In this document: one piece after another, positions 34,672 to 53,576 of the stretch
Numbering within the stretch: the stretch's first letter is position 1
How the letters are laid out: every line of letters begins with the position of its first letter
From: Halostagnicola larsenii XH-48
Lineage (GTDB): Archaea; Halobacteriota; Halobacteria; Halobacteriales; Natrialbaceae
Assembly: GCF_000517625.1 (NCBI RefSeq)
Contig: NZ_CP007056.1
Location: forward strand, 186,001-250,000
Reading direction: 5' to 3'
Length of the DNA: 64,000 nt
The notes under the pieces: model-generated
Told to the model about the DNA's origin: nothing
Seen by the model: the letters and a program-made list of their open reading frames with translations, nothing else
The model's database searches: none
Program-made: the position numbers and the translations under genes

Positions 34672-35439
34672 ATGCCCCCCCAAAACGAATCACACACGCT
34701 CCAGACGACGACGACGTCGATAGAAATCCTCGAGTTTCTCGAGGAAGCGGACGGTGCACGGGTATCCGAGATCGCCGATACAATGGAGATTCCCAAGAGT
34801 ACTGTTCACGGGCATCTCGCGACGCTCAAAGCGAAACAGTTCGTGACCCAGCAGGCTGACTTTTATCACCTCGGCCCTGAACTCCTCCGTCTCGGAAACC
34901 AGGTTCGGACGCGAGAAGAGGGGTACGTACTGGCTCGAGAGTTCACGGAACGGCTCTTCGACGTCGTCGGACTCCGCTCGATTTTCGCCGTTGAAATGGG
35001 TGGTAAAGCGGTCTTCCTCCAGACCGCATCGGGGCCGAAGATGGGCTGGATGCACGAACGACTTGGAAATCGCCTCCATCTCCATAATACCGCCGTGGGG
35101 AAGGCGATACTCGCCAATCTACCCCGAATGAGAGTCGAGCAGATCCTCGATACGTGGGGGCTCCCGGAGGAAACGGGAAACACCATTACTGATCGAGAGA
35201 CGCTGTACGCCGAACTCGAGACCGTCCGTGAGCAGGGATATGCTATCAATCACGCGGAGAACTTCAAGGAACTGCACGGTATCGGGGTCGCTGCCACGGA
35301 TCATGCCGACAACGTGATCGGAGCTTTCAGCGTCACCGGCCCGGAGCATTCGTTGAGTGGTCCAGAGAAGGAAGCCAGTATCGCGGATTCAGTGGTCGAA
35401 ATCGTCAACGAGTACGAGTTGGAACTCGCACTCGTGTAG
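34672..35439 (+). CDS. IclR family transcription regulator
   Basis: The 255-residue protein has an N-terminal winged helix (about 10-65: SIEILEFLEEADGARVSEIADTMEIPKSTVHGHLATLKAKQFV) and the IclR effector domain (about 80-250: HNTAVGKAILANLP, INHAENFKELHGIGVAATDHADNVIGAFSVTGP). IclR proteins sense small organic acids or sugar-acid intermediates. Haloarchaea use members of this family to control sugar-acid pathways. It sits beside oxidoreductase and sugar-acid genes and has a palindrome over its own promoter. Confidence 0.9.
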   Translation: MPPQNESHTLQTTTTSIEILEFLEEADGARVSEIADTMEIPKSTVHGHLATLKAKQFVTQQADFYHLGPELLRLGNQVRTREEGYVLAREFTERLFDVVGLRSIFAVEMGGKAVFLQTASGPKMGWMHERLGNRLHLHNTAVGKAILANLPRMRVEQILDTWGLPEETGNTITDRETLYAELETVREQGYAINHAENFKELHGIGVAATDHADNVIGAFSVTGPEHSLSGPEKEASIADSVVEIVNEYELELALV

Positions 35440-36066
35440 GCCGCGCTCGCTTTTCACCCGTGGTGTGCCTCGTCGATGGTGGTTAGATACCGGTGGCGAA
35501 TCACTTGTCAAGGCGATAAGGACGTTCGATATATAGGAACTTAATACCTATCCCGCGTTGGATTACATAGGTACTCGTGTAATATAGCTCCGACACTGTT
35601 AACCGCTCACTCGGCTTAGGTCGTTCCGGTGTTCGAATAAATCGAACTATTTAACAGTCTGCTGTAGTTGCCACCCGGCTGTTATCACGCGGTCGGCACG
35701 ACCGGCCTCTCGGGGTTTGCACATTACTTGCAGGGAACCGCTGCAGAACACGGGTACGAGAATCGTCGCGTGCTTTGCGGTTGAGACCACATTATCATTG
35801 TACTTCACCGTTGAACTACACTTCGACCTCGTGATGAGGGGTCACTCGTCCAACGTACTGCGGACTTCGAATGCTGACCACCTCGCTGTCCGAGGGATGG
35901 CCAGTTCTACGAGGTTCCTGCGAACGTTGTGAGCGTTCAGTTGAATCTGAAAATTCTCTCGAACCAACTACTAATCTGCCGCGAACGGGGCGTATACGGC
36001 CATTCCTTCAATCCATCATCATTTTATGGGGCAATCTTTATGGTGCCGGGTTGTTACACTTGAGAT
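35440..36066. other. 627-base gap with dyads and promoter-like words
   Basis: No gene is called; a 71-codon frame at 35717-35932 has unlikely composition. Dyads include ATAGG-AACTTAATA-CCTAT (about 35534-35552) and TTCGA-ATAAA-TCGAA (35632-35646). TCTTTATG at about 36039-36046 is a well-spaced box A for the importer gene at 36067. Confidence 0.45.
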
Positions 36067-37224
36067 ATGGTAGAACGGCACAAAGATGGGGAGATAGTCA
36101 GCGAACTCGACCGTGTGCTTCCTGACGGAATCGATCGACGTCGATTCTTGCAGGCGAGTGCGGGCGGATTCGCCGCGGCAATGGCAGGGTGTCTGGGCGG
36201 TAGTGAAGGTGATGGCGGTTCTGGCATTACCTGGCGACAGCCGTGGGCGCAGGAGCCGACGTGGTCGATCGCGTACATCGCCGACCTCGAGGGCCACTGG
36301 GAGGATGCGGGCATCGAAGCACCCGACGTTCAGGCAGGGGAAGGCTCTCCCGATACTGCTCGGCGTGTCGGAACAGGGGAGGACGAGATCGGTCAGGCAG
36401 AAGTCGGCTCGTGTATCACCGGGCTCACGGAGGGACAGGACATGCGGTTCTTCTCCGTTCCGAAACCGCGCGCGTTGCTCGGGCTAATCTACCGAACTGA
36501 TGAGGTGGACAGCGAGGAGGACCTTGCGGGGAAGAACGTTGGTCTCGCGTCGCCGTTCGCCGAGGAGACGTGGCCGATTTTCCCCGATGCGGTTGGCATC
36601 GATCCGGATGAGGTGAACGCGGATTTCGTCGCCGAGGACGCCGCGCCGGGACAGTTTGCAGAGGGTGATCTGGACGCCATCTACGGGGCACTCGACCTCC
36701 TCGGAACGTACCGGGATCAGGTCGATGACGACGTCGAACTCGGCGTGACGCCGATCAACAACTACCTGACCGTGATCGGGTACCCATTGATGGTCAACGG
36801 CGCGTGGCTCGACGAAGACGAGGAGAACATGGAGTACCTCACCGGCGTCCTCGAGGGCTACTCGGCCGCCATGAAGTGGTGTCTGTTGAACCCGGAGGAG
36901 ACCATCGACATTATGATCGACGAAGTGAATCAAGAACTCGAGATTCAGGATCGGGAAACCCTCTCCTCGCAGATGCGCTGGAACGTCGCCATCACCGCCA
37001 ACGAGGAGACTCGAACGGAAGGACTCGGTTGGTTCACCGAGGACCAGATCCAGTCGACGCTCGATAACTTGTCGATCATGGTCGACGGGTCTAACGACGT
37101 TCCCGCCGCGAGCGACATCGTCGAGATGGGGCCCGTCGAAAACGCCGAGCTGTCGACGCTTTCGGACGACGAATGGGATGAGGTGCTCTCGTACACAGAA
37201 GAGGAGTCCGCGTACTTCGAATAA
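36067..37224 (+). CDS. NitT/TauT-type ABC importer, substrate-binding lipoprotein
   Basis: The 385-residue protein has a Tat lipoprotein signal, DRRRFLQASAGG and then MAGCLGG with the lipobox Cys at about residue 41. The mature part has the NMT1/SsuA-like fold: AQEPTWSIAYIADLEGHWEDAGIE, GEDEIGQAEVGSCITGLTEGQ and DLAGKNVGLASPF. Such proteins carry nitrate, sulfonates, taurine, thiamine precursors or aromatic acids. It opens a four-gene operon. The substrate cannot be told; neighbouring genes suggest an organic anion rather than nitrate. Confidence 0.85.
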   Translation: MVERHKDGEIVSELDRVLPDGIDRRRFLQASAGGFAAAMAGCLGGSEGDGGSGITWRQPWAQEPTWSIAYIADLEGHWEDAGIEAPDVQAGEGSPDTARRVGTGEDEIGQAEVGSCITGLTEGQDMRFFSVPKPRALLGLIYRTDEVDSEEDLAGKNVGLASPFAEETWPIFPDAVGIDPDEVNADFVAEDAAPGQFAEGDLDAIYGALDLLGTYRDQVDDDVELGVTPINNYLTVIGYPLMVNGAWLDEDEENMEYLTGVLEGYSAAMKWCLLNPEETIDIMIDEVNQELEIQDRETLSSQMRWNVAITANEETRTEGLGWFTEDQIQSTLDNLSIMVDGSNDVPAASDIVEMGPVENAELSTLSDDEWDEVLSYTEEESAYFE

Positions 37225-37241
37225 CTACTGGTGTATCTACT

Positions 37242-38060
37242 ATGAGCTCAATCGAATCTAACGAGAATACTCGCACAATGGACGCAGAACCCGCAATCGC
37301 GTTCGACGACGTCACCATGCACTTCGGGACGGGTGAGGACGCGATTCACGCACTGGACGACATAAACCTCTCCGTCGCCGACGGGGAATTCGTCTCCATC
37401 GTCGGTCCGTCGGGGTGTGGCAAATCGACCCTGCTAAACATCGCGGCCGGGTTGCACGAACCGACCGGCGGAGCGCTCCGACTGGACGGTCGTGACTTCA
37501 GCACCACTGACGCCACCGGCGACATCGGGTTCATCTTTCAACGGCCCGTGTTGCTCGACTGGCGGACGGTCCGACAGAACATCCTCCTTCCGGTTCGAAT
37601 CATGAAGAAAAACGGCGACCTGGAGGGTGATATGCAGGGGTACCAGGACCGGGTGGACGAACTGATTTCACTGGTCGGTCTAGAGGGATTCGGCGACTCC
37701 TACCCGAACGAACTGTCGGGCGGGATGCAACAGCGGGTAACGATCTGTCAGAGTCTCATCTACGATCCGAGCCTCCTGTTGATGGACGAACCGTTCGGAT
37801 CGCTCGACGCCCTCACGAAAGACCAGATGAACGCGGAACTGCTCGACATCTGGAAGCGGACCAACAAGACGATCCTGTTCGTCACCCACGACCTAGAGGA
37901 GGCCGTGTTTCTCTCGGACAAGGTGGTCGTACTCAGTCCGCGTCCGGGTCGAATTCAGGACGTAATCGACATCGACCTCCCACGCCCCCGGGACGCAGAG
38001 ACGAAACAACTGACCGAATACAACGACCTTGTGACGTCAATCTACACGTACTTTCAGTGA
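37242..38060 (+). CDS. NitT/TauT-type ABC importer ATPase
   Basis: The 272-residue protein has Walker A GPSGCGKST, Q-loop FIFQRPVLLDWRTV (the DW-R-T stretch is usual for SsuB/TauB ATPases), signature LSGGMQQRVTICQSL, Walker B LLLMDEPFGSLD and H-loop FVTHDLEEAVFLSD. It lies 17 bases after the binding-protein gene and 4 bases before the first permease gene, so the four genes form one operon. Confidence 0.93.
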   Translation: MSSIESNENTRTMDAEPAIAFDDVTMHFGTGEDAIHALDDINLSVADGEFVSIVGPSGCGKSTLLNIAAGLHEPTGGALRLDGRDFSTTDATGDIGFIFQRPVLLDWRTVRQNILLPVRIMKKNGDLEGDMQGYQDRVDELISLVGLEGFGDSYPNELSGGMQQRVTICQSLIYDPSLLLMDEPFGSLDALTKDQMNAELLDIWKRTNKTILFVTHDLEEAVFLSDKVVVLSPRPGRIQDVIDIDLPRPRDAETKQLTEYNDLVTSIYTYFQ

Positions 38061-38064
38061 GACA

Positions 38065-38850
38065 ATGAACATCAACGACACGAGACGAACGCAGTGGGTG
38101 CTCACGGTTGGCGGGATAGTACTGGCCCTGTTGTTTTGGCACCTGACGACTGAAACCTTTGGGCTCGTTTCGGAGACGAAGTTTCCCGCGCCGTTGAGCG
38201 TCTACTCCGAGTTTACTGATAATCAGGAACTGATCATCGACAACACCTGGCCGACGATCACCGCCGGCTTCATCGGATTCGGACTCGCCGTCGTAACGGC
38301 GGTCCTCAGCGCCATCTTTCTGTCGCTGAATAAACGCGTCGAGAACGCGCTGATGCCGATCGTCGTCGGAGCGAATTCGGTCCCGCGAGTGACGCTTGCC
38401 CCGTTGATCATCTTTTATCTCGGCTCGGGAGTCGCCGCGAACTACATGATCGCCGCCTGGGTCGCGTTCTTCCCGATGTTCCTGAACGCTATGGAAAGCC
38501 TCGGGAAGATGTCCGACGAACACCAGGATCTCTGCGATCTCTACAAGGCATCGACCTGGCAGGAGTATCGTTACATCCGCATTCCGAACGCGCTCCCGCA
38601 GATATTCGACGGCATGAAGATGGCGATCATCCTCGCGATGATCGGGGCCGTCGTCGGCGAATTCGTCGCCACGACCGAGGGGCTCGGCTACCTCTCGACG
38701 CTCGCGCTCCGGAACGCGAACATGGGGCTGGCTTTCGCCATCGTCGGCGTCTTGGGCCTCATCTCGACGCTGGCCATCTTCGCCATCTACCAGGTCCAAG
38801 ATAAACTGATCTTCTGGGAGGACTCGAGTTTCTTCACAACGGAGGCCTGA
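38065..38850 (+). CDS. NitT/TauT-type ABC importer permease (1)
   Basis: The 261-residue protein has six predicted helices and the BPD_transp_1 coupling loop LCDLYKASTWQEYRYIRIPNALPQIFDGMK. MPIVVGANSVPRVTLAPLIIFYLGSG is the usual start of the permease core. It is followed 2 bases later by a second permease gene. The two are related but distinct, so the channel is probably a heterodimer, less common in this transporter class than a homodimer. Confidence 0.9.
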   Translation: MNINDTRRTQWVLTVGGIVLALLFWHLTTETFGLVSETKFPAPLSVYSEFTDNQELIIDNTWPTITAGFIGFGLAVVTAVLSAIFLSLNKRVENALMPIVVGANSVPRVTLAPLIIFYLGSGVAANYMIAAWVAFFPMFLNAMESLGKMSDEHQDLCDLYKASTWQEYRYIRIPNALPQIFDGMKMAIILAMIGAVVGEFVATTEGLGYLSTLALRNANMGLAFAIVGVLGLISTLAIFAIYQVQDKLIFWEDSSFFTTEA

Positions 38851-38852
38851 CA

Positions 38853-39668
38853 ATGGCGGAAGAACACTCACTTCCGTCCACCGGTCGATACGACCACTTC
38901 GGCGTGCTCGAGCGACTGAAGCAGTGGGCGAGCGAGAACGTCGGGACCGCACTCGTACTCGTCTCTCTGCTCGGAATCTGGGAGGGATATTCCAGATTCT
39001 TCAACGACCGCGGCGATATTTACTTCCCGAGCATCGAATACACCGTTCGCCAGACGGTCGAATCATCCGACATCGTGCTGGCGGCGATCAGAGTGACGTT
39101 CGTCGAGGTCATCGTCGGGTTCGTACTCGCCGTCGTACTCGGTATCACGCTCGGGATGATTCTGGCCGAGTCGTTCGTCGCCAGATACCTCTCGATGCCG
39201 ATGTTGATTTACGCCTACGGTATCCCCCATCCGATTCTCGCGCCGGTGTTCTTGCTCTGGTTCGGCCTCGGACTGGAAGGCGTCGTCACGTTCGCGGCGT
39301 GGGTCGCGTTCTTCCCGACGTTCATCAACACGGTCTCGAGTCTCAGCCGAATCGATCCCGAGTACGAAAAGTTTCGGTCGATCGTCGGTGCCAATCGATT
39401 GCAGTACCTCCGCCATATCAAGTTCTGGAACGCGCTCCCGGAGATCGTGAGCGGGGTAAAAATCACGTTCCAGTTGACGATCGTCGGCGCGATCATCGCG
39501 GAGTTCCTCGGCGGAGGGGGCGGTCTCGGCTACCTGATCATCCAGTCGACCCAACGGGCGCAACTGGGGCTGACGTTCGGGATCATCATCCTGATCGCGT
39601 TGTTCGCGTCGGTTCTGTACAAGCTTCTCTCGCTTTTCCTCGACGCGATTACTCCCCAACAAACGTAA
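38853..39668 (+). CDS. NitT/TauT-type ABC importer permease (2)
   Basis: The 271-residue protein has a hydrophilic N-terminus of about 30 residues, six helices and the coupling loop EYEKFRSIVGANRLQYLRHIKFWNALPEIVSGVK. It shares WVAFFP and the PxxxxG pattern with the first permease. It ends the operon and is followed by a long AT-rich gap. Confidence 0.9.
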   Translation: MAEEHSLPSTGRYDHFGVLERLKQWASENVGTALVLVSLLGIWEGYSRFFNDRGDIYFPSIEYTVRQTVESSDIVLAAIRVTFVEVIVGFVLAVVLGITLGMILAESFVARYLSMPMLIYAYGIPHPILAPVFLLWFGLGLEGVVTFAAWVAFFPTFINTVSSLSRIDPEYEKFRSIVGANRLQYLRHIKFWNALPEIVSGVKITFQLTIVGAIIAEFLGGGGGLGYLIIQSTQRAQLGLTFGIIILIALFASVLYKLLSLFLDAITPQQT

Positions 39669-40432: not shown

Positions 40433-41791
40433 TCACGCAGTATCGGTTCGACTCGGCCAGCCGTCGCATTTCTGTGCGTCCAGCCGGTCGTCGGTCATGG
40501 CGACCCAGCGTATCTCGTTCCAGCTCAACCGGTAGTGACAGGTTTCCGGCTGCAGTTGGTCCCAGTAGATGGTCTGCATCGACGGAGCGTTCCCGTCCGC
40601 CGGGGTTATCGGCAAGTCCTCTCCGGGTGGTTCAGCCTGCAGTTGATTTGTTTGAAGCGTCTGTTTCGGGGCCGGCGAATCGAGGTGCCAGACGACCCCG
40701 CCGAGGACGAGCACGGCGACGAGCATGACGATGACGGCACCCGTCCACAGATTGCGGTTCGTTTGGTTCTCATCGCCACGCTGCGGATCCGTCGATAGTG
40801 AGCGCCACGCGAGCACGCGTTCGACGGTAACTGCGACACCCAGTGCAATGAACGAAAGCAACAGGAACGCGTCCGTGGAGCCGTCGAGATCGACGAATAG
40901 CACCTGTAGGGTGAGGAGCACGCCACCAACCGGCAGCCACCAGTGGGCTCCTAGGTCACGGGCGACCGCGCGTCCCCAGCCATAGATGGCCACCGGGAAG
41001 AGCACTGCTCCGTAGCCAAACACCAAGAGTATCGAGTAGACGCGTTCGGCCAACGTGTAGGGCGAACCGGCGCTCAACGGTGCGATTATCGACTGTACCA
41101 CCATGGGGACGAGCGCCCCCACAGCCGCGAACACCCCGACGACGATTCCGGTCACGAGACCGCCACCAGCGATCGCAGAGAGCGCGTCTCGCCCGCCGTT
41201 TCGCTGATAGGCCATCCCGACAATAAGTGGTGCGAAGACCGCCCCTGACTGCCACGACCCGGCGCTTAGCGCCGCGAGGACTCCGGCGAGAAATGGGCGG
41301 TCACGGAGGACGAGCGCGAGGGCGAGCGTCCCGAAAAACAGCGCGTAGAACTGCGCTCTGACCCCTTCTAACGAAAGAACGAGGAGCTCCGGGACGATCA
41401 GCATCGTGAGGCCGGCGGCGATCGCCGCAACGTGCTCTTCGGTCACGAGGTACGCAATCCAGCCGACGAGCAGGACGCTCGCGGCCGCGACGAGCACCGT
41501 GAGTGCCGTGCTAAGGCCGTGCAGGACGAGCATATCCCCGCCGGAGAGGACGGCGAGCACGGCAGTAATTCCGAACGGAACGGGCGGGTTCACGTCCCAG
41601 ACGTCGACGTATGGAACGCCGCCCTGAACGATGTACCACCCCGTGTGCTGGAAGAACGCGGGATCGGTTGCGATCGTGGGCCACCTCGTTTGCAAATAGC
41701 AGACGGATCCGGCGGTGAACAGGACGGCGACTATCGGACCGAGGACGACGAGCCAACCGACACGGATCTCGGAGAGTGAACGCGGTGACAT
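40433..41791 (-). CDS. GT-C fold membrane glycosyltransferase (PMT/ArnT-like)
   Basis: The 452-residue protein has about 10-11 helices. After the first helix comes an external loop, DPAFFQHTGWYIVQGGVPYVDVWDVNPPVPFG, whose Asp residues resemble the catalytic loop of GT39/ArnT-type enzymes, which use polyprenyl-phosphate sugars. A C-terminal hydrophilic part outside the membrane ends WVAMTDDRLDAQKCDGWPS. It lies downstream of the SDR gene on the same strand with 25 bases between them. A transferase using a lipid-phosphate sugar made by the neighbouring UbiA-family enzyme is a plausible role; acceptor unknown. Confidence 0.72.
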   Translation of the reverse strand: MSPRSLSEIRVGWLVVLGPIVAVLFTAGSVCYLQTRWPTIATDPAFFQHTGWYIVQGGVPYVDVWDVNPPVPFGITAVLAVLSGGDMLVLHGLSTALTVLVAAASVLLVGWIAYLVTEEHVAAIAAGLTMLIVPELLVLSLEGVRAQFYALFFGTLALALVLRDRPFLAGVLAALSAGSWQSGAVFAPLIVGMAYQRNGGRDALSAIAGGGLVTGIVVGVFAAVGALVPMVVQSIIAPLSAGSPYTLAERVYSILLVFGYGAVLFPVAIYGWGRAVARDLGAHWWLPVGGVLLTLQVLFVDLDGSTDAFLLLSFIALGVAVTVERVLAWRSLSTDPQRGDENQTNRNLWTGAVIVMLVAVLVLGGVVWHLDSPAPKQTLQTNQLQAEPPGEDLPITPADGNAPSMQTIYWDQLQPETCHYRLSWNEIRWVAMTDDRLDAQKCDGWPSRTDTA

Positions 41792-41816
41792 AGTGGGAGT
41801 TGACGGGACCGATCCG

Positions 41817-42908
41817 TTAGATTTTCTGGGAGACCTTCTTCGCGATGGTGAGGGCTCCTTGATCCCACGCGACGCGGTGGTCGAGGCCGGTCTCGTTGGC
41901 CGCTTCGTTCGATTCGTCGTGCGCTAAGTACCAGTCGTACGTCTCCACGAGCGCCTCCCGGTTGGAGTACTCGGGCTCCCAGCCGAGCCTCTTCAGCTTC
42001 TCGACCGAGACGTAGGAGTCCTCGTGGGCCGTCTCGTAGACCCACGGGTATAGCGGAGACAGATTCAGGCGGTCCAGTACGCGGAGGACAGCGACCGTGA
42101 GGAAGGCTGGCGTCCCGATGGTACGTTTGCCCGTGCCCGCGTAATCGATGGGGGCCTGAAAATCCGCTTTCATCGTGGTGAACTCGTCGGTGCCGACGTT
42201 GAACGTGTCGTCGACTGCCTCCTCGTCGCCGGTGAGCACCAGATCGATGGCGGTGACAAGGTCGTAGACGTGCAGCAGTTGGTACCGGTTGTCGCCCCAC
42301 CCGACGAGCGGGACGTTCGCGCCGTCTTCGATCCAGTCGAAAAGCACCTGAAACACGCCGAGTCGCTGCGGACCGATGAACGTCTTCGGGCGAAGGATGG
42401 GGACACAAAGCCCCATGCGTCGGAAGTCTTCACACACCTTTTCGGCCTGAATCTTGGCCTCGCCGTAGGGTCCGACCCCTTCCAGCGGCGACTGCTCGGT
42501 GATGGGGTGGGTCTCGTGGGTTCCGTACACCGCGGTCGAAGAGATATAACAGACCCGCTCGACGCCGCCTTCTTTGGCCGCCCAGAGCACGTTTCGCGTC
42601 CCGTCGATCGTCGTCTCCCGGATGCGGTCGGCGTCCCATAGCGGAAGTGCGGCCGCGGCATGTACGACGGCCGTCGCGTCGCTCTGCTCTATCGCATCGG
42701 CCACGGAGCGCTCGCTGCGTACGTCTCCCTCGACGTACTCGATCCCGTCCGTGTCGTCTTCGTCCTCGAAGGACTTGAGATCGAACGCGGTAACGTCCCA
42801 CCCCTGGTCGCGGAAGTACTGGCACGCGTGGAGGCCGAGAAAACCGGTTCCTCCCGTGACGAGGACCGAGCCAGTCGAGTCGCCGGCGTCGCGCTCACTC
42901 TCGCTCAT
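41817..42908 (-). CDS. extended SDR, NAD-dependent sugar epimerase/dehydratase-like
   Basis: The 363-residue protein has VLVTGGTGFLGLHA (NAD-binding glycine motif, about 16-28), the acidic stretch YVEGDVRS, ISSTAVYG with the catalytic Ser/Thr, and PYGEAKIQAEK with Tyr148 and Lys152. This is the extended SDR class, which epimerises, reduces or dehydrates nucleotide or lipid-linked sugars. It is transcribed with the GT-C gene and divergent from the UbiA-family gene. Mycobacterial DprE2 is a shorter classical SDR, so this is not a direct equivalent. Confidence 0.82.
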   Translation of the reverse strand: MSESERDAGDSTGSVLVTGGTGFLGLHACQYFRDQGWDVTAFDLKSFEDEDDTDGIEYVEGDVRSERSVADAIEQSDATAVVHAAAALPLWDADRIRETTIDGTRNVLWAAKEGGVERVCYISSTAVYGTHETHPITEQSPLEGVGPYGEAKIQAEKVCEDFRRMGLCVPILRPKTFIGPQRLGVFQVLFDWIEDGANVPLVGWGDNRYQLLHVYDLVTAIDLVLTGDEEAVDDTFNVGTDEFTTMKADFQAPIDYAGTGKRTIGTPAFLTVAVLRVLDRLNLSPLYPWVYETAHEDSYVSVEKLKRLGWEPEYSNREALVETYDWYLAHDESNEAANETGLDHRVAWDQGALTIAKKVSQKI

Positions 42909-43413
42909 TGTGGTATCGAACTAATTCTCGAGACGACGGGTGAATAGTGTATCGCCGGTTAGCGCCCCTCTAATGGTCCGGTGAGTGCCTCGGATGACGA
43001 AAAGGGGATCATTATGTCACCGCGAAAACGGGCCGTCCGACTCGGGCGGGCGGTCGCCCTGCGAGCATCGGAGGCTTCGCTCGCAGAGACTCATGTCGAA
43101 TCGATGGCTCAGCAGCGGCTTCGTAACGACCAGTTATGTCCGACAGCGACGCGACCGTACTCCTGCGAAGGGGTATCTCGCTACGTTTGCGCTCCGGTAT
43201 ATCGAATCCTTACTGGATGGGTGCCACGATCTACATCGTGATTACCGTCCGGACGACTTCCGATCGGCGATTCTTTTCTCGTTCGTCCGACGGGCCGACC
43301 CGAATCGAGTGGGCCATGAGAATCGTTTCACCGGTAGTCCGATATTGTGGGCTGTAACGGAACCCGGGAAAGCCGGACTTTTTTGCCACCGTATGTGGGA
43401 GTGATATCGATCG
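42909..43413. other. 505-base gap between divergent glycan genes
   Basis: It should hold the promoters of the SDR and UbiA-family genes. An inverted repeat CTGCGAG (43059-43065) and CTCGCAG (43080-43086) lies in it. An 86-codon plus-strand frame at 42981-43241 is Arg/Ala-rich and not convincing. GACTTTTTTGCC about 30-38 bases before 43414 is a weak box A. Confidence 0.4.
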
Positions 43414-44328
43414 ATGGCCCGAGCATACGCCACTCACCGCCGGGTCGCAGTAACCGTCTCCGGGCTGGCCAAGGAGATCCGTCCATGGCAGTGGTACAAA
43501 CAGAGTATCCTGTTGCTGGGGCTCGTCTTCTCCGGGAGCCTGTTCGATCCTGTCGCGGTCACGAACGTCGCAATCGGCGTCGTCGCCTTCTGTGCCATCG
43601 CGGGCGCGACGTACATCGGCAACGACATCGCAGACCTCGAGGAAGACCGCAAGCACCCGCGGAAGAAACATCGCCCCATCGCTAGCGGGCAAGTGCCGAT
43701 CTCCGTCGCAGTGGCGTTCGCGGCGGTGCTTTTCGTCGGCGGTATCTCCCTTTCTGCCACCCTCGGGCCGCTGTTTCTCCTGATCGTCCTCGCGTACCTC
43801 GCACAGAACGCGCTTTACTCCGTGTTCCTGAAGGAAGTCGTCCTCGTCGACGTGATGGTGATCGCCGTCGGGTTCGTGTTGCGGGCCATCGCCGGCGTGG
43901 TCGCCATCGACGTCTCCCTGAGCCCCTGGCTCGTCGTCTGTACGTTCCTCGGAGCGCTGATGCTCGCGTTCGGCAAGCGTCGCCACGAAATGGTCGTCAA
44001 CGACGATCCGTCCGCGTCGCGGTCGATTCTCGCCGAGTACACCGAGGAATTATTGGACCAGTTTCTCGTCGTCGTGCTGTCTGCGCTGCTCGTTTCCTAC
44101 TCGCTTTACACGTTCTTCGGCAGCGGCGTCTGGATGATGGCCACCCTCCCGTTCGCTTTCTTTGCGGCCTTCAGATACCACTACCTTGCCCATACGCGCG
44201 ACCTCGGCGGCGATCCGAAGTTCCTCTTCGCCGACCGTCCGTTCTTCCTGAACCTCGTCGTCTGGGGCCTCGTCGTCGTCGGGATTCTGTACGACGTCCC
44301 GATCGTTCTCGTCGAACTGTTCGCCTGA
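43414..44328 (+). CDS. UbiA-family prenyltransferase, polyprenyl-phosphate phosphoribosyltransferase-like
   Basis: The 304-residue protein has about nine helices. It matches mycobacterial decaprenyl-phosphate phosphoribosyltransferase (Rv3806c) at its landmarks: EIRPWQWYKQ near the start, NDIADLEEDRKHPRKKHRPIASG (Asn70, Asp71, Asp74 and Asp78 for Mg and diphosphate), VLRAIAGVVAIDVSLSPWL, FGKRRHEM, and ILAEYTEELLDQF. Quinone, heme and archaeal ether-lipid UbiA enzymes lack the KR-H-E and the Tyr-Thr block. The predicted reaction is transfer of phosphoribose from PRPP to a polyprenyl phosphate. It leads a plus-strand series with a phosphoesterase and a flippase-like gene. Confidence 0.82.
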   Translation: MARAYATHRRVAVTVSGLAKEIRPWQWYKQSILLLGLVFSGSLFDPVAVTNVAIGVVAFCAIAGATYIGNDIADLEEDRKHPRKKHRPIASGQVPISVAVAFAAVLFVGGISLSATLGPLFLLIVLAYLAQNALYSVFLKEVVLVDVMVIAVGFVLRAIAGVVAIDVSLSPWLVVCTFLGALMLAFGKRRHEMVVNDDPSASRSILAEYTEELLDQFLVVVLSALLVSYSLYTFFGSGVWMMATLPFAFFAAFRYHYLAHTRDLGGDPKFLFADRPFFLNLVVWGLVVVGILYDVPIVLVELFA

Positions 44329-44359
44329 TGATCAGCATGCCTCGAGTCCACCAACCACC

Positions 44360-45040
44360 ATGACACGCCGATACGATCTGCAGGTTCACACGGACGCTTC
44401 GCCCTGCTCGAGTACGCCTCCCGAGCGCGTCGCAACCGCGGCGGTCGACGCCGGACTCGACGGTATCGCCGTCACCGACCACGACACGCTCGCCAATGTC
44501 GACGCCGTTCGGGACGCCGTCCCCGCGTCCCTGGACGTAATCTCCGGGGTCGAGGTGACCACGACCGAGGGGCACCTCTTGGCGCTCGACGTGACTGAGC
44601 CGCCGCCGCAGACTGACCCGTTGACCGTGATCGATCACGTCCACGATCAAGGAGGTGTCGCCGTCCTATCACACCCGTTCGATACAATGAGACAGTACTA
44701 CGAGGCGGACCTTGATACCCTCGCAGACGCCATCGACGGGGTCGAGGCGATAAATTCCCGTTGTGTCCGCCGCCGATTCAACGAACGCGCAGCGCGCTTC
44801 GCGGCCGCCCACGACCTGCCGGCGACCGGCGGAAGCGACGCCCACTTTCCGATGGAGGTCGGCCGCGCGTACGCCACCGTCGAGGGCGACGGGCCGCTCG
44901 TCGAGGCCGTACGCGAAGGGCGCGTTCGTCCCGGCGGTCGCGGACGATACCTCTCGGGGCACGTCGCGACGAAAATCCATCAGTTTCGAACCGCTTCGGG
45001 TCGCTTCGTCGCGGACCTCACACCGGGGAGATCACCGTGA
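44360..45040 (+). CDS. PHP-domain phosphoesterase
   Basis: The 226-residue protein has YDLQVHTDASPCS (motif I, where Gln8 replaces the usual first His), GIAVTDHDTLAN (II), VLSHPF (III) and GGSDAHFPMEVG (IV). These form the multi-metal site of the PHP fold, used for phosphoester cleavage as in histidinol phosphatase or nucleotide phosphatases. The start is 31 bases after the UbiA-family gene. Its stop overlaps the GTG start of the next gene. A possible task is removing the 5-phosphate from polyprenyl-phospho-ribose phosphate, a step mycobacteria assign to another phosphatase; this is inference. Confidence 0.8.
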   Translation: MTRRYDLQVHTDASPCSSTPPERVATAAVDAGLDGIAVTDHDTLANVDAVRDAVPASLDVISGVEVTTTEGHLLALDVTEPPPQTDPLTVIDHVHDQGGVAVLSHPFDTMRQYYEADLDTLADAIDGVEAINSRCVRRRFNERAARFAAAHDLPATGGSDAHFPMEVGRAYATVEGDGPLVEAVREGRVRPGGRGRYLSGHVATKIHQFRTASGRFVADLTPGRSP

Positions 45041-46002
45041 CGACGAGCGGAAAGGCGGTCGTCGACCGGGGCCTGACGGTCGTTCGCGACCACGGCGTCT
45101 GGCTGACGGCATTACTCTCGGTCGTGGTCTTCTTCACCTTGGCCGCTTACGCGGACATCGACAGCGTGACGAGCGCTCTCGCCGCAGTGAACTGGAGCAC
45201 GTTCGGCATCGTCCTCGGCCTCACGACCGTCGGATACGGCTTCCGATTCGCAAAATGGCACTACTACCTCCGGCGACTCGACGTGGACATTCCGCTCGCG
45301 GCGAGCGCTATCGCCTTCTTCAGCGGGCTGATGATGGTCGTCACGCCGGGGAAAGCCGGCGAGGTCTGGAAGGCGTGGTTCCTGAGCGACACGCGCGGCG
45401 TTCCCGCGAGCAAGACGACCTCCGTCGTCGGCGCGGAGCGTATCACGGATCTCATCGCGCTGAGCGTGTTGGCCGCGCTCGGCGTCCTAGTTTACAGCCG
45501 CTCGTCGCTTCCCGTGATCGGTCTCCTCGGGACCATCGCGCTCGGGATCGGCCTGCTTCAGTGGCGACGGGGGTGTCTGGCGCTCCTCGGACGGCTCGAG
45601 TCGGCCCCGGTCCTCGGCGAGTACGCGAGCGAACTCGAGCAGTTCTACGAGGGTACGTACCGACTGTTCCAGTTTCGTCCGCTCGTCGTTTCGACGCTGC
45701 TCAGCCTCGCGGCGTGGGGGCTCGAAGGCGTCGCGTTCTGGCTGGTTCTCGAGGGATTCGGCGTCGACGCCAGCGTCGTCATCGGGCTGTTCGTCTTCGG
45801 CTTCGGGTCGGTCGTCGGCGCGGTGTCGATGCTCCCCGGCGGACTCGCGGCGACGGAGGCGTCGATGGTCGGCGTCCTGCTCTCGATCGGGTACCCGGAG
45901 ACCGTCGCGGCCGCCGCCACGATCGTGATCCGTGTGGGGACGCTGTGGTACGCTGCTGCGCTCGGCACGGCCACGTTCCTCACGTACAGGGGGACGCGAT
46001 GA
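45037..46002 (+). CDS. UPF0104/LPG-synthase-TM family membrane protein, flippase-like
   Basis: The 321-residue protein has eight or so helices and matches the lysylphosphatidylglycerol synthase TM (UPF0104) family: NWSTFGIVLGLTTVGYGFRFAKWHYYLR, GLMMVVTPGKAGEVWKAWFL, TTSVVGAERITDLIAL and SMLPGGLAATEASMVGVLL. The GTG at 45037 is the start: it overlaps the PHP stop as GTGA and has GGGGAG seven bases upstream. Proteins of this family are thought to move lipid-linked molecules across membranes and occur near glycan genes in archaea. It could translocate the lipid-phosphate sugar to the GT-C enzyme. Confidence 0.82.
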   Translation: MTTSGKAVVDRGLTVVRDHGVWLTALLSVVVFFTLAAYADIDSVTSALAAVNWSTFGIVLGLTTVGYGFRFAKWHYYLRRLDVDIPLAASAIAFFSGLMMVVTPGKAGEVWKAWFLSDTRGVPASKTTSVVGAERITDLIALSVLAALGVLVYSRSSLPVIGLLGTIALGIGLLQWRRGCLALLGRLESAPVLGEYASELEQFYEGTYRLFQFRPLVVSTLLSLAAWGLEGVAFWLVLEGFGVDASVVIGLFVFGFGSVVGAVSMLPGGLAATEASMVGVLLSIGYPETVAAAATIVIRVGTLWYAAALGTATFLTYRGTR

Positions 46003-46261
46003 GCGGGCCACGAATTGCGGCTTTCGTCGAGTTCGGCTTGTCTTCACTGCGTCCACACCTCCGCTCGAGTTGGTTCTCGAGCGGTCCGTCTGCAATCGCA
46101 GTACCGGTCCGGATACTGCTTTCACGCTCTCACAGCGCTCGAGACGTAACACTTGTGACCACGTCTCCAACCCGTATATCCTGTATTGTACGCCAATTCA
46201 CCCAATTTTGGGATCGATCACGTCCGATACGATTCGAACGAACCGCTCCAGCTAAGTATCT

Positions 46262-47566
46262 ATGAACCAGCGTATCCGCGTCACCGTCGCCGCCGCCGTC
46301 ATCGCTCTCCTGATCGCATCACTTGGCGTCCAGGCAATCACCATCGACCGCGAACCGACCGTTATCAATGAAGATGGCCGCTATCCCGGGAACACGCTCG
46401 TGGGGGTTCATTCGTACACCGACGATGGGCAAGTCGTCGAAATAGCGCCCGACGGCGATGTCGTCTGGGAGTGGTCGGTGCCCGACTCGCGCGTGTTCGG
46501 CGTCGAACAGATCGATCCGGAGACAGTGCTGGCGGCCGTCGCCGTCAAGACGCCTGCCGAAGAGTGTTCCCAGGAGTACCTGGAGTACGAGGAGTACGAT
46601 GACCACTGCGTTCACAACCGCGTCGTCGAAATCGACAAGGGGTCGAAGGAGGTCGTCTGGGAATACGACTGGTACGACGACTTCATCGACTACCAGGAAG
46701 TCCACGACTTCGAGCGCCTCGATACTGGAGAAACGGCGATCATCGACATGGGGAACGATCGCTCGTTTACCGTCGACCGCGACGGCGAGATCACCTGGGA
46801 GTGGTATGCCGAGGACCATTTGACACCCGGAACGCCGTTCTACGAGGAGTACGGCGGTCACCAGCGAGACGGCGAACACGACGACTGGACGCACATGAAC
46901 GACATCGACCAACTGGAAAACGGCAACTTCCAGATGAGCATCCGGAACTTCGACTCGATCATCGAGGTCGATCCGGAGACTGACGAGATCGTCGATGTGA
47001 TCGGCGAACCGGGGAACAAAACCGTGCTGGATGAACAGCACAATCCTCACCGTATCGAAGATGAGGGGACGATGGTCGTCGCCGACAGCCGAAACAACCG
47101 GATCGTCGAACTCGACCTCGAGTCCAACGAGGAGATCTGGCGCTATACCGGCACTGCAAACGACCCCCTCCAGTGGCCACGTGACGCCGATCGACTGCCC
47201 AACGGCAACACGCTCATCACGGATTCGCGGAACAATCGTGTGCTCGAGGTCGCCCCCGATGGGGAGATCGTCTGGGAGTTCGACGACGCCGACGGGACAG
47301 TTATTCCGTTGGCGTACGAGGCCGACCGCATCGGAGTCGGCGAACAGCCCGATGTGCCGCCGGGGAGCGAACTGACCGAGGTCGATGTCGAACCTGGGCC
47401 CCTTCAGTCAGTGATTCAAGAATGGGAAGCCATGGCGCAGTACGTCTTCCCGACGTGGATGCACCTTCCGCAGATACTGCACGTCGTCGGTATCGGTCTG
47501 GGTGTGCTGTGGCTTGGTGGAGAGGGGTGTCTATTCGCGTGGCGACGAATCAGTACCAAGTGGTGA
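46262..47566 (+). CDS. arylsulfotransferase-like (ASST) beta-propeller membrane protein
   Basis: The 434-residue protein has an N-terminal helix (about 6-25), a propeller of repeated strands such as VVEIAPDGDVVWEWSVPD, HNRVVEIDKGSKEVVWEYDWYDD and SRNNRVLEVAPDGEIVWEFDD, and a C-terminal helix (about 405-425) followed by RRISTKW. Such D-G-x-x-x-W-E/x-W repeats are typical of archaeal ASST-family proteins. Bacterial ASST moves sulfate between phenolic esters; an active-site His is expected but not assigned here (candidates in THMNDIDQL and HNPHRI). Its place after the glycan genes suggests modification of a surface glycan or protein. Confidence 0.75.
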   Translation: MNQRIRVTVAAAVIALLIASLGVQAITIDREPTVINEDGRYPGNTLVGVHSYTDDGQVVEIAPDGDVVWEWSVPDSRVFGVEQIDPETVLAAVAVKTPAEECSQEYLEYEEYDDHCVHNRVVEIDKGSKEVVWEYDWYDDFIDYQEVHDFERLDTGETAIIDMGNDRSFTVDRDGEITWEWYAEDHLTPGTPFYEEYGGHQRDGEHDDWTHMNDIDQLENGNFQMSIRNFDSIIEVDPETDEIVDVIGEPGNKTVLDEQHNPHRIEDEGTMVVADSRNNRIVELDLESNEEIWRYTGTANDPLQWPRDADRLPNGNTLITDSRNNRVLEVAPDGEIVWEFDDADGTVIPLAYEADRIGVGEQPDVPPGSELTEVDVEPGPLQSVIQEWEAMAQYVFPTWMHLPQILHVVGIGLGVLWLGGEGCLFAWRRISTKW

Positions 47567-51111: not shown

Positions 51112-52344
51112 ATGGTTCTGGCACCCATTACGGACGTTTTACTTGGAATTTATCTCGGACTACTCGCCGCCATCTTCCCGGCGTTCATCGCGTTTTCCAT
51201 CGGTTTTATATTCAAATACTTCACGGCCGTTACCGTCCCCGCCCTCGGTGTCGTTGCACTGGGCGGGACACTCGCCGGGGTGTCCGGCGGGTTAATGGGG
51301 CTGATGGACCCGACACTCTCCGGGAGCTGGACGGGTATCACTGCTGTCTTAGTGATCTTGATGGCTTGCCTATGGGCGCACAGTCAAGGAGACACACTCG
51401 CGGATGCAACGCCTCGGAGGCTGACGCTAAAATCCATTCCGGGGGCGAAACTCTCCACCGACTTGGCCGAGCGGGTCGACTCCTACGGCCAGGTCCGCAT
51501 TCGGCCCGTGGGGGAGATACACGACATCGAGGGGTACCCTCAGTTGTCCGAGGATCTGCGAGAACAGATCGCCAATCGTTCCTGGAAGTTCCCCGTTGCT
51601 CTCTCGGTTTCGGCGCTCGAATCCCGGCTCGAGGAGCGTCTGATGGCCGACTACGAACTCGCCGAAGCGAGCGTGACCATCGACAAAAAGGGACGCGCAC
51701 ATATCGCTGGGGCGCCGACTGCTGCCGGACTATCTCGGCGCGTACCGCCCAGAAAGCGGGCTGTAACGATTGAGACTCTCCTCCCGACCGGTGTTGCCCG
51801 GGGCGACTCCGTGACGCTTCGGCTCCCGGACGGCGACGTTACGGGTCCAATGGTTAGCGCCCGAACGAAAGGCGTCGAGACGAATGAGGTCGAGACGAAG
51901 AGTGAACCAGATCCGTCGAAGGAAACTGACGGTATCCAAGACGGTGTGAAACAACTCATCCCGAAGATGACGACGACCGGAGGAGAGGGGTTCGTTACCA
52001 TCGCCGTTTCCCTCGCCGAGGGAAAGCGGATCGTTCGGAACGACTTCGCACCGATGGTTGTCAATTCGCGGGGAAAACAGCGCGAGTACGAAACGATCGC
52101 GGTTCTTCGGCAACACGGGAACCGATTTCGGAAACTGGTTGTGGGCGAACGGAGCTCACTCGCCGGCACCACGATCGGCGGTTCGCAGATTCGTGACGCC
52201 TACAGGGTGGCGATTCTAGCGATCCGACGTCCGTCGGAGGTGCTCATCGCTCCGCGGGGTTCGACTGAACTCCGGAGCGGTGACGAGCTAATCGTCGTCG
52301 GCAAGCCAACTCAGCTCCGTGAATTTGAGGGGGTGATCGCATGA
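51112..52344 (+). CDS. membrane protein with C-terminal TrkA-C (RCK_C) domain (1)
   Basis: The 410-residue protein has three helices in its first 90 residues (one near 10-35, one 40-65, one 70-90), then a soluble region. The middle part (about 105-230) has IRPVGEIHDIEGYPQL and LESRLEERLMADYELAEASVTID. The end (about 320-410: RKLVVGERSSLAGTTIGGSQIRDAYRVAILAIRRP, then RSGDELIVVGKPTQLREFEG) is an RCK_C domain. There is no Rossmann RCK_N domain and no potassium pore loop. It overlaps the next gene by 4 bases. Its role may be to sense ions or nucleotides for a channel or transporter encoded elsewhere. Confidence 0.75.
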   Translation: MVLAPITDVLLGIYLGLLAAIFPAFIAFSIGFIFKYFTAVTVPALGVVALGGTLAGVSGGLMGLMDPTLSGSWTGITAVLVILMACLWAHSQGDTLADATPRRLTLKSIPGAKLSTDLAERVDSYGQVRIRPVGEIHDIEGYPQLSEDLREQIANRSWKFPVALSVSALESRLEERLMADYELAEASVTIDKKGRAHIAGAPTAAGLSRRVPPRKRAVTIETLLPTGVARGDSVTLRLPDGDVTGPMVSARTKGVETNEVETKSEPDPSKETDGIQDGVKQLIPKMTTTGGEGFVTIAVSLAEGKRIVRNDFAPMVVNSRGKQREYETIAVLRQHGNRFRKLVVGERSSLAGTTIGGSQIRDAYRVAILAIRRPSEVLIAPRGSTELRSGDELIVVGKPTQLREFEGVIA

Positions 52345-53576
52345 GCCTGATATCGACGGCGCTCACTCACTCGTTCGTAGCGGCGTTGGTTAGCATACTC
52401 GGCTTGTCGCTGCTGGCGTTTGCGGTAACGACGATCGTCACGTTCGTGTTCCAGGTGCGGGTCCGACAGCGGTTCCCTGCGGGTGCAACACTTATCGTTG
52501 GTCTGGGCGTCGTCGCGATCTATCTCAACTCTCGATTGGCCCTCGTCCAGTTCATCAGTAACACGGGCGATCCCGTCACTGTGGAAGAGGCGATCCTCAA
52601 CGTTTCGGCGTTCGCCGCGGCCGGCGTCGTGTCGTATGCGGGCCGATACGTCGGCAACACGGTTGGTGCCTCGAAGCAACTACCATGGCTAACCGTCGCG
52701 CCCGATTTCAGCCCGCTGGTTCGGGCCACTGGCCGATTCATCACGGTTACCCTGCCAGAGGACGTCCAAGACATCGATGGCTACGATGCAGTAAAGGGGG
52801 AAACGAAGAAGATACTCTCCGGGAAAACGATGGATTTCCCGCGGGGATTGACGATAGAGGAACTGGAATCCCAGATCGCCGCTCGGCTGACAGACGGATA
52901 CGATATCGGCTACGTCGACGTGGACCTCGATACGAACGGGTCAGTCCAGTATCTCGCCGTGGGCCAGCGTCCGATCGGGATCGGGCAGACGCTACCCCAA
53001 CAGTCCGCGGCAGTTGCGATCCGTGCGGACCCTCCTTACAGCGCAACTGCGGGTGATACAGTCCAGGTGTGGCGAACGGACGACGACGGCGTCGAAACAC
53101 TACTCGGGACAGCAGAACTCCGAGGGAGTGTCCAGACGGTCGCAACGCTTGCGATGGACAAAGCGATGGCATCCGAGATGGATCCGACCGAGGATTACCG
53201 GCTGATGACGCTCTCGGCCGATTCGAACCCCGAACGCGAGTTCGCTGCGATGTTGCGGCGGGAGGACGAGACGATGAGCACCGTCGAGATTACGGCCGAG
53301 AGTCCGCTTATCGGGAGCTCGATCGGGGCGCTCGACGTGACCGTTATCGCTGCTCGGACCACCGACGGCGGTATCGAAACGCTCCCGAAGCGAGATCACA
53401 TCATTCAGGCGGGAGACTGTCTCTTCGCGATCGGGCGTCCGGAAGCTCTGAGACGGCTCGAATCGGAAAACACCGCGCGTATCACTCCCACCGAACAGGT
53501 ACTCGAGTATACCGAACAAATTCCGGCTCGATCGGAAGCATCGGGCGACAGACCACAGACGAAACGCGATCGGTGA
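52341..53576 (+). CDS. membrane protein with C-terminal TrkA-C (RCK_C) domain (2)
   Basis: The 411-residue protein repeats the layout of its neighbour: three helices (about 10-95), a soluble middle with LPEDVQDIDGYDAVKG and IEELESQIAARLTDGYDIGYVDVDLD, and a C-terminal RCK_C-like domain (VEITAESPLIGSSIGALDVTVIAARTTDGG, then IQAGDCLFAIGRPEALRRLE). The aligned DIxGY and LESxxxxRLxxxY motifs show that the pair arose by duplication, though they have diverged widely. The ATGA overlap indicates coupled synthesis and probably a heteromer. Confidence 0.75.
   Translation: MSLISTALTHSFVAALVSILGLSLLAFAVTTIVTFVFQVRVRQRFPAGATLIVGLGVVAIYLNSRLALVQFISNTGDPVTVEEAILNVSAFAAAGVVSYAGRYVGNTVGASKQLPWLTVAPDFSPLVRATGRFITVTLPEDVQDIDGYDAVKGETKKILSGKTMDFPRGLTIEELESQIAARLTDGYDIGYVDVDLDTNGSVQYLAVGQRPIGIGQTLPQQSAAVAIRADPPYSATAGDTVQVWRTDDDGVETLLGTAELRGSVQTVATLAMDKAMASEMDPTEDYRLMTLSADSNPEREFAAMLRREDETMSTVEITAESPLIGSSIGALDVTVIAARTTDGGIETLPKRDHIIQAGDCLFAIGRPEALRRLESENTARITPTEQVLEYTEQIPARSEASGDRPQTKRDR

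Follow-up and report, generated by a model that had tools for sequence, protein, structure and literature searches.

The question raised by this locus is whether an archaeon makes a pentose donor on a polyprenyl-phosphate carrier and uses it in glycan assembly, as an earlier sequence-only reading had proposed. The window is the whole stretch of DNA that was analysed, 64,000 nucleotides of Halostagnicola larsenii XH-48 (contig NZ_CP007056.1, positions 186,001 to 250,000). A lipid-linked pentose pathway is known from mycobacteria and other bacteria, and as far as we found the literature holds no archaeal description. The general scheme (PRPP-derived polyprenyl-phosphate pentose, SDR epimerase, flippase and GT-C transferase) is already established in bacteria (PMC11127046).

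At a probability of about 0.78, we take the locus to encode an archaeal module that makes a pentofuranose donor on polyprenyl (probably dolichyl) phosphate, together with its transferase. The class of the UbiA protein, the linkage of the core genes, the fusion that replaces PHP and UPF0104 in one archaeon and the GT-C families (AftA among them) in the partner slot support the proposed scheme; what each enzyme does and in which order, and which sugar, lipid and acceptor are involved, is what we infer from sequence.

Gene content of the locus

All six open reading frames were found on the window gene map as listed here, and domains were assigned to the six proteins by Pfam and NCBIfam profile search.

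40433-41791, minus strand: GT-C glycosyltransferase, AglS type, 452 aa (PF15971, E 3.9e-29)
41817-42908, minus strand: extended SDR, 363 aa, divergent from UbiA (PF01370, E 1.3e-42)
42909-43413, no strand: divergent intergenic region between SDR and UbiA on the gene map, predicted to be a shared promoter region
43414-44328, plus strand: UbiA-superfamily protein assigned as PRPP:polyprenyl-phosphate phosphoribosyltransferase (Rv3806c/DPPR-synthase class), 304 aa (PF01040, E 4.2e-30; NF008977)
44360-45040, plus strand: PHP-family phosphoesterase, 226 aa (PF02811 and PF13263)
45037-46002, plus strand: UPF0104/LPG_synthase_TM membrane protein, 321 aa (PF03706, E 4.9e-41; TIGR00374)
46262-47566, plus strand: arylsulfotransferase-like (ASST-like) protein, 434 aa (PF05935/PF14269, partial and weak, 44 bits)

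The UPF0104 gene has a GTG start and overlaps the end of the PHP gene by 4 bases. The divergent order of the SDR and UbiA genes recurs in most loci compared.

Class of the UbiA protein

The UbiA protein scores 240.5 bits against NF008977, the decaprenyl-phosphate phosphoribosyltransferase equivalog (cut-off 234), and falls below the cut-offs of the sister models NF008978 and NF008976. Its best solved relative is Rv3806c (8j8j, E 1.6e-34), with DGGGP synthase at 2e-4. We checked 13 Rv3806c positions taken from the paper on the PRPP-bound structure, where these residues bind Mg2+ and the pyrophosphate, ribose and 5'-phosphate of PRPP (PMC10994848). Eleven are identical in the window protein (R22, K28, Y70, N73, D74, D77, D81, K87, R90, Y138 and K143), which carries the motifs Y-x2-ND-x2-D-x3-D-x2-HP-x-K-x2-RP and KRxxE. 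The two substitutions, Q135N and Y157F, recur across the relatives compared, in the archaeal ones and in almost every bacterial one; some mycobacteria, too, have F at position 157. In a tree of 64 proteins the window protein groups with Rv3806c and the bacterial DPPR synthases (split support 93/93); DGGGP synthase and the other UbiA proteins encoded in its genome all stand apart on very long branches. No relative was found when viral contigs were searched with the window protein.

The sequence-only reading had likened this protein to the mycobacterial DPPR synthase rather than to quinone or ether-lipid enzymes, and model score, residues and phylogeny all bear this out. That it is instead an ordinary prenyltransferase (quinone, ether lipid or heme) in an incidental neighbourhood could draw on its membership in the UbiA superfamily and on weak matches of general UbiA models. 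This reading is already contradicted, and we give it next to no probability: the PRPP-contact residues are kept, the other functional UbiA models stay far below cut-off, the tree splits the protein from DGGGP synthase and its own genomic paralogues, and its gene co-occurs strictly with those for PHP, UPF0104 and SDR. A quinone or ether-lipid enzyme was rejected on the NF008977 score, the 8j8j match and the tree.

Distribution and linkage of the core genes

Our census covered 293 Halobacteriales genomes, 29 of which carry a DPPR-class UbiA gene, in 31 copies. The class is separated by a clean score gap, its 31 genes lying at 198-251 bits and the next UbiA at 36 bits. Across the census, orthologues of the PHP, SDR and UPF0104 genes are confined to the genomes with this UbiA, with one exception; there PHP and UPF0104 are present, and beside them only the C-terminal part of UbiA survives, decayed and carrying a stop. 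PHP adjoins UbiA in all 31 haloarchaeal loci. An SDR orthologue occurs in 27 of the 29 UbiA genomes, all 27 SDR-bearing genomes hold the DPPR-class UbiA, and in three genomes the SDR lies elsewhere in the genome. One genome (G124) has UbiA and PHP and is missing the UPF0104 and SDR orthologues. Fisher tests of co-occurrence with UbiA over the 293 genomes give p = 4e-36 (SDR), 8e-37 (UPF0104) and 3e-39 (PHP). These values take no account of relatedness, but several families are represented among the genomes. The grouping of UbiA with its partner genes is far beyond chance.

Two outcomes would have refuted the sequence-only reading, a UbiA protein grouping with ether-lipid or quinone synthases and a scattering of the six genes in relatives, and neither was observed. 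The core stays together in relatives: UPF0104 stands beside the UbiA-PHP pair in 30 of 31 loci and the SDR is linked to the core in 26 of 31, but the constant unit is one of four genes, less variable than the GT-C slot, whose occupant changes, and the ASST gene, which is occasional. The core also recurs in other Halobacteriota. In places the proposed donor module lies on plasmids, and some genomes have two copies. A constant donor module with an exchangeable GT-C, distributed in this way, looks like a device for surface diversification.

Proposed pathway and middle steps

The UbiA protein would transfer 5-phosphoribose from PRPP to polyprenyl phosphate, giving polyprenyl-P-ribose-5-P. The PHP phosphoesterase, its proposed 5-phosphatase, would remove the 5-phosphate. 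The SDR, the proposed epimerase, would then convert the lipid-linked ribofuranose to arabinose by inversion at C2 or to xylose by inversion at C3, and the UPF0104 protein, by analogy the proposed flippase, would carry the pentose, still on its lipid, across to the outer side of the membrane. There the GT-C, as proposed final pentosyltransferase, would attach the sugar to a glycan of the cell surface, with the S-layer N-glycan as the likeliest acceptor.

Phosphoesterase. The window PHP exceeds the Pfam gathering scores of both PF02811 and PF13263. Its first metal motif is QxH instead of the usual HxH, as in nearly all haloarchaeal copies, a point against the proposed scheme; HxH is kept in the DPPR-linked PHPs of other, more distant Halobacteriota. 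Residues H10, E65, H105, D160 and H162 are near-invariant. No match came from a pattern check on PHP paralogues located elsewhere than in the loci.

Flippase candidate. A flippase function of PF03706 proteins rests largely on analogy. At a locus from one of the other Halobacteriota (L121), a single reading frame fuses a HAD phosphatase (DFDKT motif) to a GtrA/DPMS transmembrane domain (PF04138). The fusion takes the place of PHP and UPF0104. UbiA lies on one side of it and an SDR of 53% identity on the other; a PMT_2 GT-C follows.

SDR. Motif conservation was compared in 43 sequences, and the window SDR has its motifs intact (TGxxGxxG at T18-G25 and Y148xxxK152). Nonomuraea, Sphaerisporangium and related genera have an SDR 41-44% identical to it next to a DPPR-class UbiA, and these actinobacterial pairs sit next to a class-III aminotransferase, so chemistry other than epimerisation is possible. 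The same module might leave the pentose skeleton unchanged, the donor being plain polyprenyl-P-ribofuranose or a form oxidised by the SDR (a keto- or 5-aldehyde sugar, for instance), with ribose or modified ribose reaching the glycan. The aminotransferase would need such a carbonyl sugar, and ribose is the sugar of Citrobacter O1, which is without an epimerase (PMC11127046). We consider this version unlikely, since the SDR is nearly constant with UbiA (27/29 genomes), the bacterial precedent is an SDR converting Ribf to Xylf (PMC11127046), an AftA homologue at one locus points to arabinofuranose, and an unsystematic look at the haloarchaeal loci revealed no aminotransferase.

The transferase slot

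The window GT-C is the only PF15971 protein in its genome, at 102 bits against a gathering score of 33. An AglS-type GT-C fills the same slot in Natrialbaceae relatives, and other GT-C families, including the PMT_2 type, fill it elsewhere. The AglS-type family is known for mannose transfer, and the window protein, being of this type, could use another donor. Its AlphaFold model, built on a 10-sequence alignment, has a pLDDT of 44 and was left out of the argument. Mycobacterial AftA is an arabinofuranosyltransferase that uses decaprenyl-P-arabinose. A homologue lies directly beside the core at one haloarchaeal locus (L081:5692-7464, minus strand; AftA_N E 1.5e-24, AftA_C 2.4e-7; solved AftA 8if8, E 2.1e-18). 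None of the 293 genomes gave another AftA_N match, and the window's genome is without AftA.

The exchange of GT-C families between genomes, and the few loci without any Pfam-recognised GT-C, could be taken to mean that the end product of the UbiA-PHP-UPF0104-SDR set is itself a membrane lipid or glycolipid of phosphoribosyl origin, the GT-C genes nearby being unrelated glycan genes. This seems to us improbable: most loci have a recognisable GT-C-type gene next to the core, drawn from several families including AftA, and a pathway for a donor would account for the dedicated phosphatase and flippase candidate.

Our literature search for pentose in haloarchaeal S-layer glycans or N-glycans found nothing direct. 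In Natrialba chahannaoensis, GC-MS peaks of the exopolysaccharide suggest derivatives of arabinose and ribose (PMC12457646), a hint too weak to count as support. A more specific version of the donor-module reading, to which we give somewhat less than even odds, has certain archaea producing D-arabinofuranose (or xylofuranose) on dolichyl phosphate from PRPP, by a route that has the first enzyme, and no other, in common with mycobacteria. The remaining donor steps would fall to a PHP phosphatase, one SDR that is independent of DprE1/DprE2, and a UPF0104 flippase, and interchangeable GT-Cs, including an archaeal AftA, would decorate S-layer glycans with the sugar. If true, archaea too have the lipid-linked pentofuranose chemistry familiar from bacterial O antigens and from drug targets in tuberculosis, with different middle-step enzymes, and offer a natural point of comparison in the debate over the sidedness of epimerisation. 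It would also propose functions for a generically annotated PHP protein, an SDR and the UPF0104 family, and predict pentoses in haloarchaeal surface glycans.

Comparison with known systems

The mycobacterial decaprenyl-phospho-arabinose pathway consists of Rv3806c, Rv3807c, DprE1/DprE2, Rv3789 and AftA/Emb. Its first enzyme is homologous to the archaeal one over its length with the PRPP site kept, the succession of tasks would be the same, and an AftA homologue lies beside the module in one haloarchaeon. The sequence-only reading had expected phosphatase and epimerase to come from other families; here a PHP protein and one SDR would take the places of Rv3807c and of DprE1 plus DprE2. No Rv3807c-type phosphatase was recognised in the archaeal locus, an ALO-domain (DprE1-type, PF04030) oxidase is absent from 17 of the 18 module-bearing genomes tested, the window's own included, and the flippase family differs.

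The dolichyl-phosphate-mannose branch of Haloferax volcanii comprises AglD, AglR and AglS. There too a monosaccharide on dolichyl phosphate crosses the membrane and an AglS-type GT-C (PF15971) transfers it outside. The donor in the window would come from PRPP via UbiA, in contrast to the glycosyltransferase AglD, and AglR is a different candidate flippase from the window's UPF0104.

Closest are the bacterial three-component pentofuranose systems, which combine a UbiA synthase, a phosphatase, an optional SDR epimerase, a flippase candidate and a GT-C and are experimentally established except for flipping (PMC11127046). We best read the module as an archaeal variant of these, with different phosphatase and flippase families. 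Like them it is patchily distributed and encodes a UbiA-class phosphoribosyltransferase, a phosphatase, an extended SDR (TGxxGxxG, YxxxK), a flippase candidate and a GT-C together; phosphoribosyltransferase, flippase candidate and GT-C are grouped in the window and 30 further loci, with the GT-C in most. The prototype, Citrobacter youngae O1/O2, has a PPPRS-HAD protein (ORF15), a MATE protein (ORF14), a GT136 GT-C (ORF12) and an SDR epimerase (ORF13) (PMC11127046). The archaeal module instead has a PHP phosphatase for the HAD domain, a UPF0104 (PF03706) flippase candidate for MATE, and GT-Cs that by Pfam assignment are AglS-type, PMT_2 or AftA-like and so apparently of families other than GT136. 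The SDR, optional in bacteria, is almost always present. With a PF03706 protein as flippase candidate instead of MATE, the module is classed as a variant that would work like the prototype, not as a member of that system.

Other genes near the core

A 477-aa polytopic family lies near nine loci. Its sequence profile matched no solved structure. Foldseek of its AlphaFold model (pLDDT 51) ranked AftA 8if8 first (E 7e-3, TM 0.36) and ArnT fourth, which is no more than a hint.

The ASST-like gene was set aside as a core member; it lies near only about 10 of the loci, on varying strands. Its product is possibly an accessory protein for sulfation of the glycan.

Gene layout and verdict

The sequence-only reading had proposed a six-gene polyprenyl-phospho-pentose pathway for glycan assembly. 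All six genes are present as described in the gene map and in Pfam/NCBIfam matches, and the interpretation is upheld for a core of four (UbiA, PHP, UPF0104 and SDR); the claim of a six-gene unit is narrowed, the GT-C gene being variable. The UbiA, PHP and UPF0104 genes are co-directional and spaced as in an operon (gap of 31 bases, overlap of 4 bases), and the SDR and GT-C genes run opposite to UbiA, diverging from the intergenic stretch 42909-43413. The window is located on a 574-kb contig of the genome. Two further gene groups were noted in it, the first unrelated to the locus:

34672-39668 (+), IclR-type regulator, then an NMT1/THI5-like binding protein, ABC ATPase and two permeases
51112-53576 (+), two membrane-type proteins in tandem, each with a TrkA_C domain at its end

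The first enzyme

The UbiA protein (89% identity to its Natrialba asiatica counterpart) scores 240.5 bits with the NCBIfam equivalog model for decaprenyl-phosphate phosphoribosyltransferase (DPPR; cut-off 234) and far below the cut-offs of the quinone, heme O and geranylgeranylglycerol-phosphate models; NCBI had already named the gene automatically. The top solved structure is mycobacterial Rv3806c (E 1.6e-34; 33% identity over 272 columns), with archaeal DGGGP synthase far lower (2e-4). Among positions named in the Rv3806c structure paper (PMC10994848), R22, K28, Y70, N73, D77, K87, R90, Y138 and K143 are conserved; Q135 and Y157 are replaced by Asn and Phe, as in every archaeal relative compared and almost every bacterial one. 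KRxxE, the second loop motif, is intact in 51/51 sequences. A maximum-likelihood tree splits all DPPR-class proteins from DGGGP synthase and from the genome's seven remaining UbiA proteins (support 93/93) and places the haloarchaeal ones in a single group (100/98), although deep placement is inexact because the other UbiA branches are very long.

Distribution in Halobacteriales

DPPR-class UbiA is encoded by 31 genes in 29 of 293 Halobacteriales genomes (198-251 bits; the next UbiA scores 36), two genomes having two locus copies each. In the ~20 kb around each gene, PHP adjoins UbiA in 31/31 loci, UPF0104 is next in order in 30/31, and an SDR relative is linked, mostly divergently, in 26/31; three genomes have the SDR elsewhere. 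Whole-genome searches found SDR orthologues in 27 genomes, every one among the 29. PHP orthologues were found in all 29 and UPF0104 orthologues in 28, each also occurring in one further genome (G168), which keeps the stop-containing remains of a UbiA gene next to these two. One genome (G124) has UbiA and PHP, with a Wzx-like protein ~5 kb off; the whole-genome searches found neither an SDR nor a UPF0104 orthologue there.

Two strains, Haloterrigena sp. KLK7 and Natronococcus sp. CG52, carry the locus on plasmids. In CG52 both the SDR and the AglS-type GT-C have changed position without leaving the neighbourhood, where genes for a sulfotransferase and an adenylyl-sulfate kinase also occur. A similar PHP-UbiA-epimerase run in Halanaeroarchaeum sulfurireducens (HLASA_2009 to HLASA_2012) is tabulated in the phage-like-elements section of PMC4866403.

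The transferase slot

The window GT-C is the sole PF15971 protein in its genome, of the same DolP-mannose mannosyltransferase type as AglS, the enzyme that attaches the final mannose residue of the Haloferax pentasaccharide. Four other loci (L071, L086, L089, L010) have PMT_2 proteins in the slot, and others the following:

L064:12360-13790 (-), 477-aa polytopic protein with eight relatives, with possible weak structural resemblance to AftA
L081:5692-7464 (-), homologue of mycobacterial AftA, both AftA domains matched (solved AftA, E 2.1e-18)

The 477-aa family, conserved at nine loci and usually convergent with the UPF0104 gene, had no Pfam match. The L081 protein is the only AftA_N match among the 293 genomes; its adjoining SDR copy is broken by stops or a frameshift, and the second locus of that genome has an intact SDR. 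In bacterial three-component systems, too, the donor step stays constant and the later parts are interchangeable (PMC11127046). The first comparison for the locus should be with these systems; what would be new is its occurrence in archaea as a variant in which two or three of the parts are non-homologous. The literature searched, which takes in a minority of subscription journals, contained no description of the module in archaea.

Outside the haloarchaea

Seven non-haloarchaeal Halobacteriota genomes have DPPR-class genes. Four (L118, L120, L122, L123) have UbiA, PHP and UPF0104 together (32-48% identity) with a protein whose N-terminus is DUF362-like, PF04015 being confirmed by Pfam for L118 only; no SDR was found at these four loci. 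At L121 UbiA comes first, followed by a protein that joins a HAD phosphatase to a GtrA/DPMS transmembrane domain, then a 53% identical SDR and lastly a PMT_2 GT-C. In actinobacterial genomes the gene immediately upstream of DPPR-class UbiA encodes an SDR (41-44% identity), preceded in the one case scanned by a class-III aminotransferase.

L118:10411-11472 (-), DUF362-type protein, encoded with UbiA-PHP-UPF0104; also at L120, L122 and L123
L121:10311-11336 (+), HAD phosphatase-GtrA/DPMS fusion, between DPPR-class UbiA and SDR
L015:5468-8921 (+), consecutive genes for a class-III aminotransferase, an SDR and a DPPR-class UbiA; similar actinobacterial loci exist

The last arrangement possibly makes a lipid-linked amino-pentose.

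Proposed pathway

By analogy with PMC11127046 and the mycobacterial pathway, we infer five steps: PRPP and polyprenyl phosphate would give a 5-phosphoribosyl lipid, which PHP would dephosphorylate, the SDR would epimerise at C2 or C3, UPF0104 would flip and the GT-C would transfer. Directly established are the family membership and active-site residues of the first enzyme, linkage, co-occurrence, and the substitution in one archaeon. This substitution, at L121, puts a known phosphatase fold and a known polyprenyl-P-sugar flippase family in the place of PHP and UPF0104, and is the strongest indirect evidence for dephosphorylation and flipping. We count as weak points a Gln in the PHP metal motif and the gene content of G124. 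DprE1-type oxidases are absent from 17 of the 18 module-bearing genomes examined, so any arabinose is probably made by the SDR alone. The genome encodes an AglB-type oligosaccharyltransferase, on a different contig, and an N-glycan acceptor is thus available.
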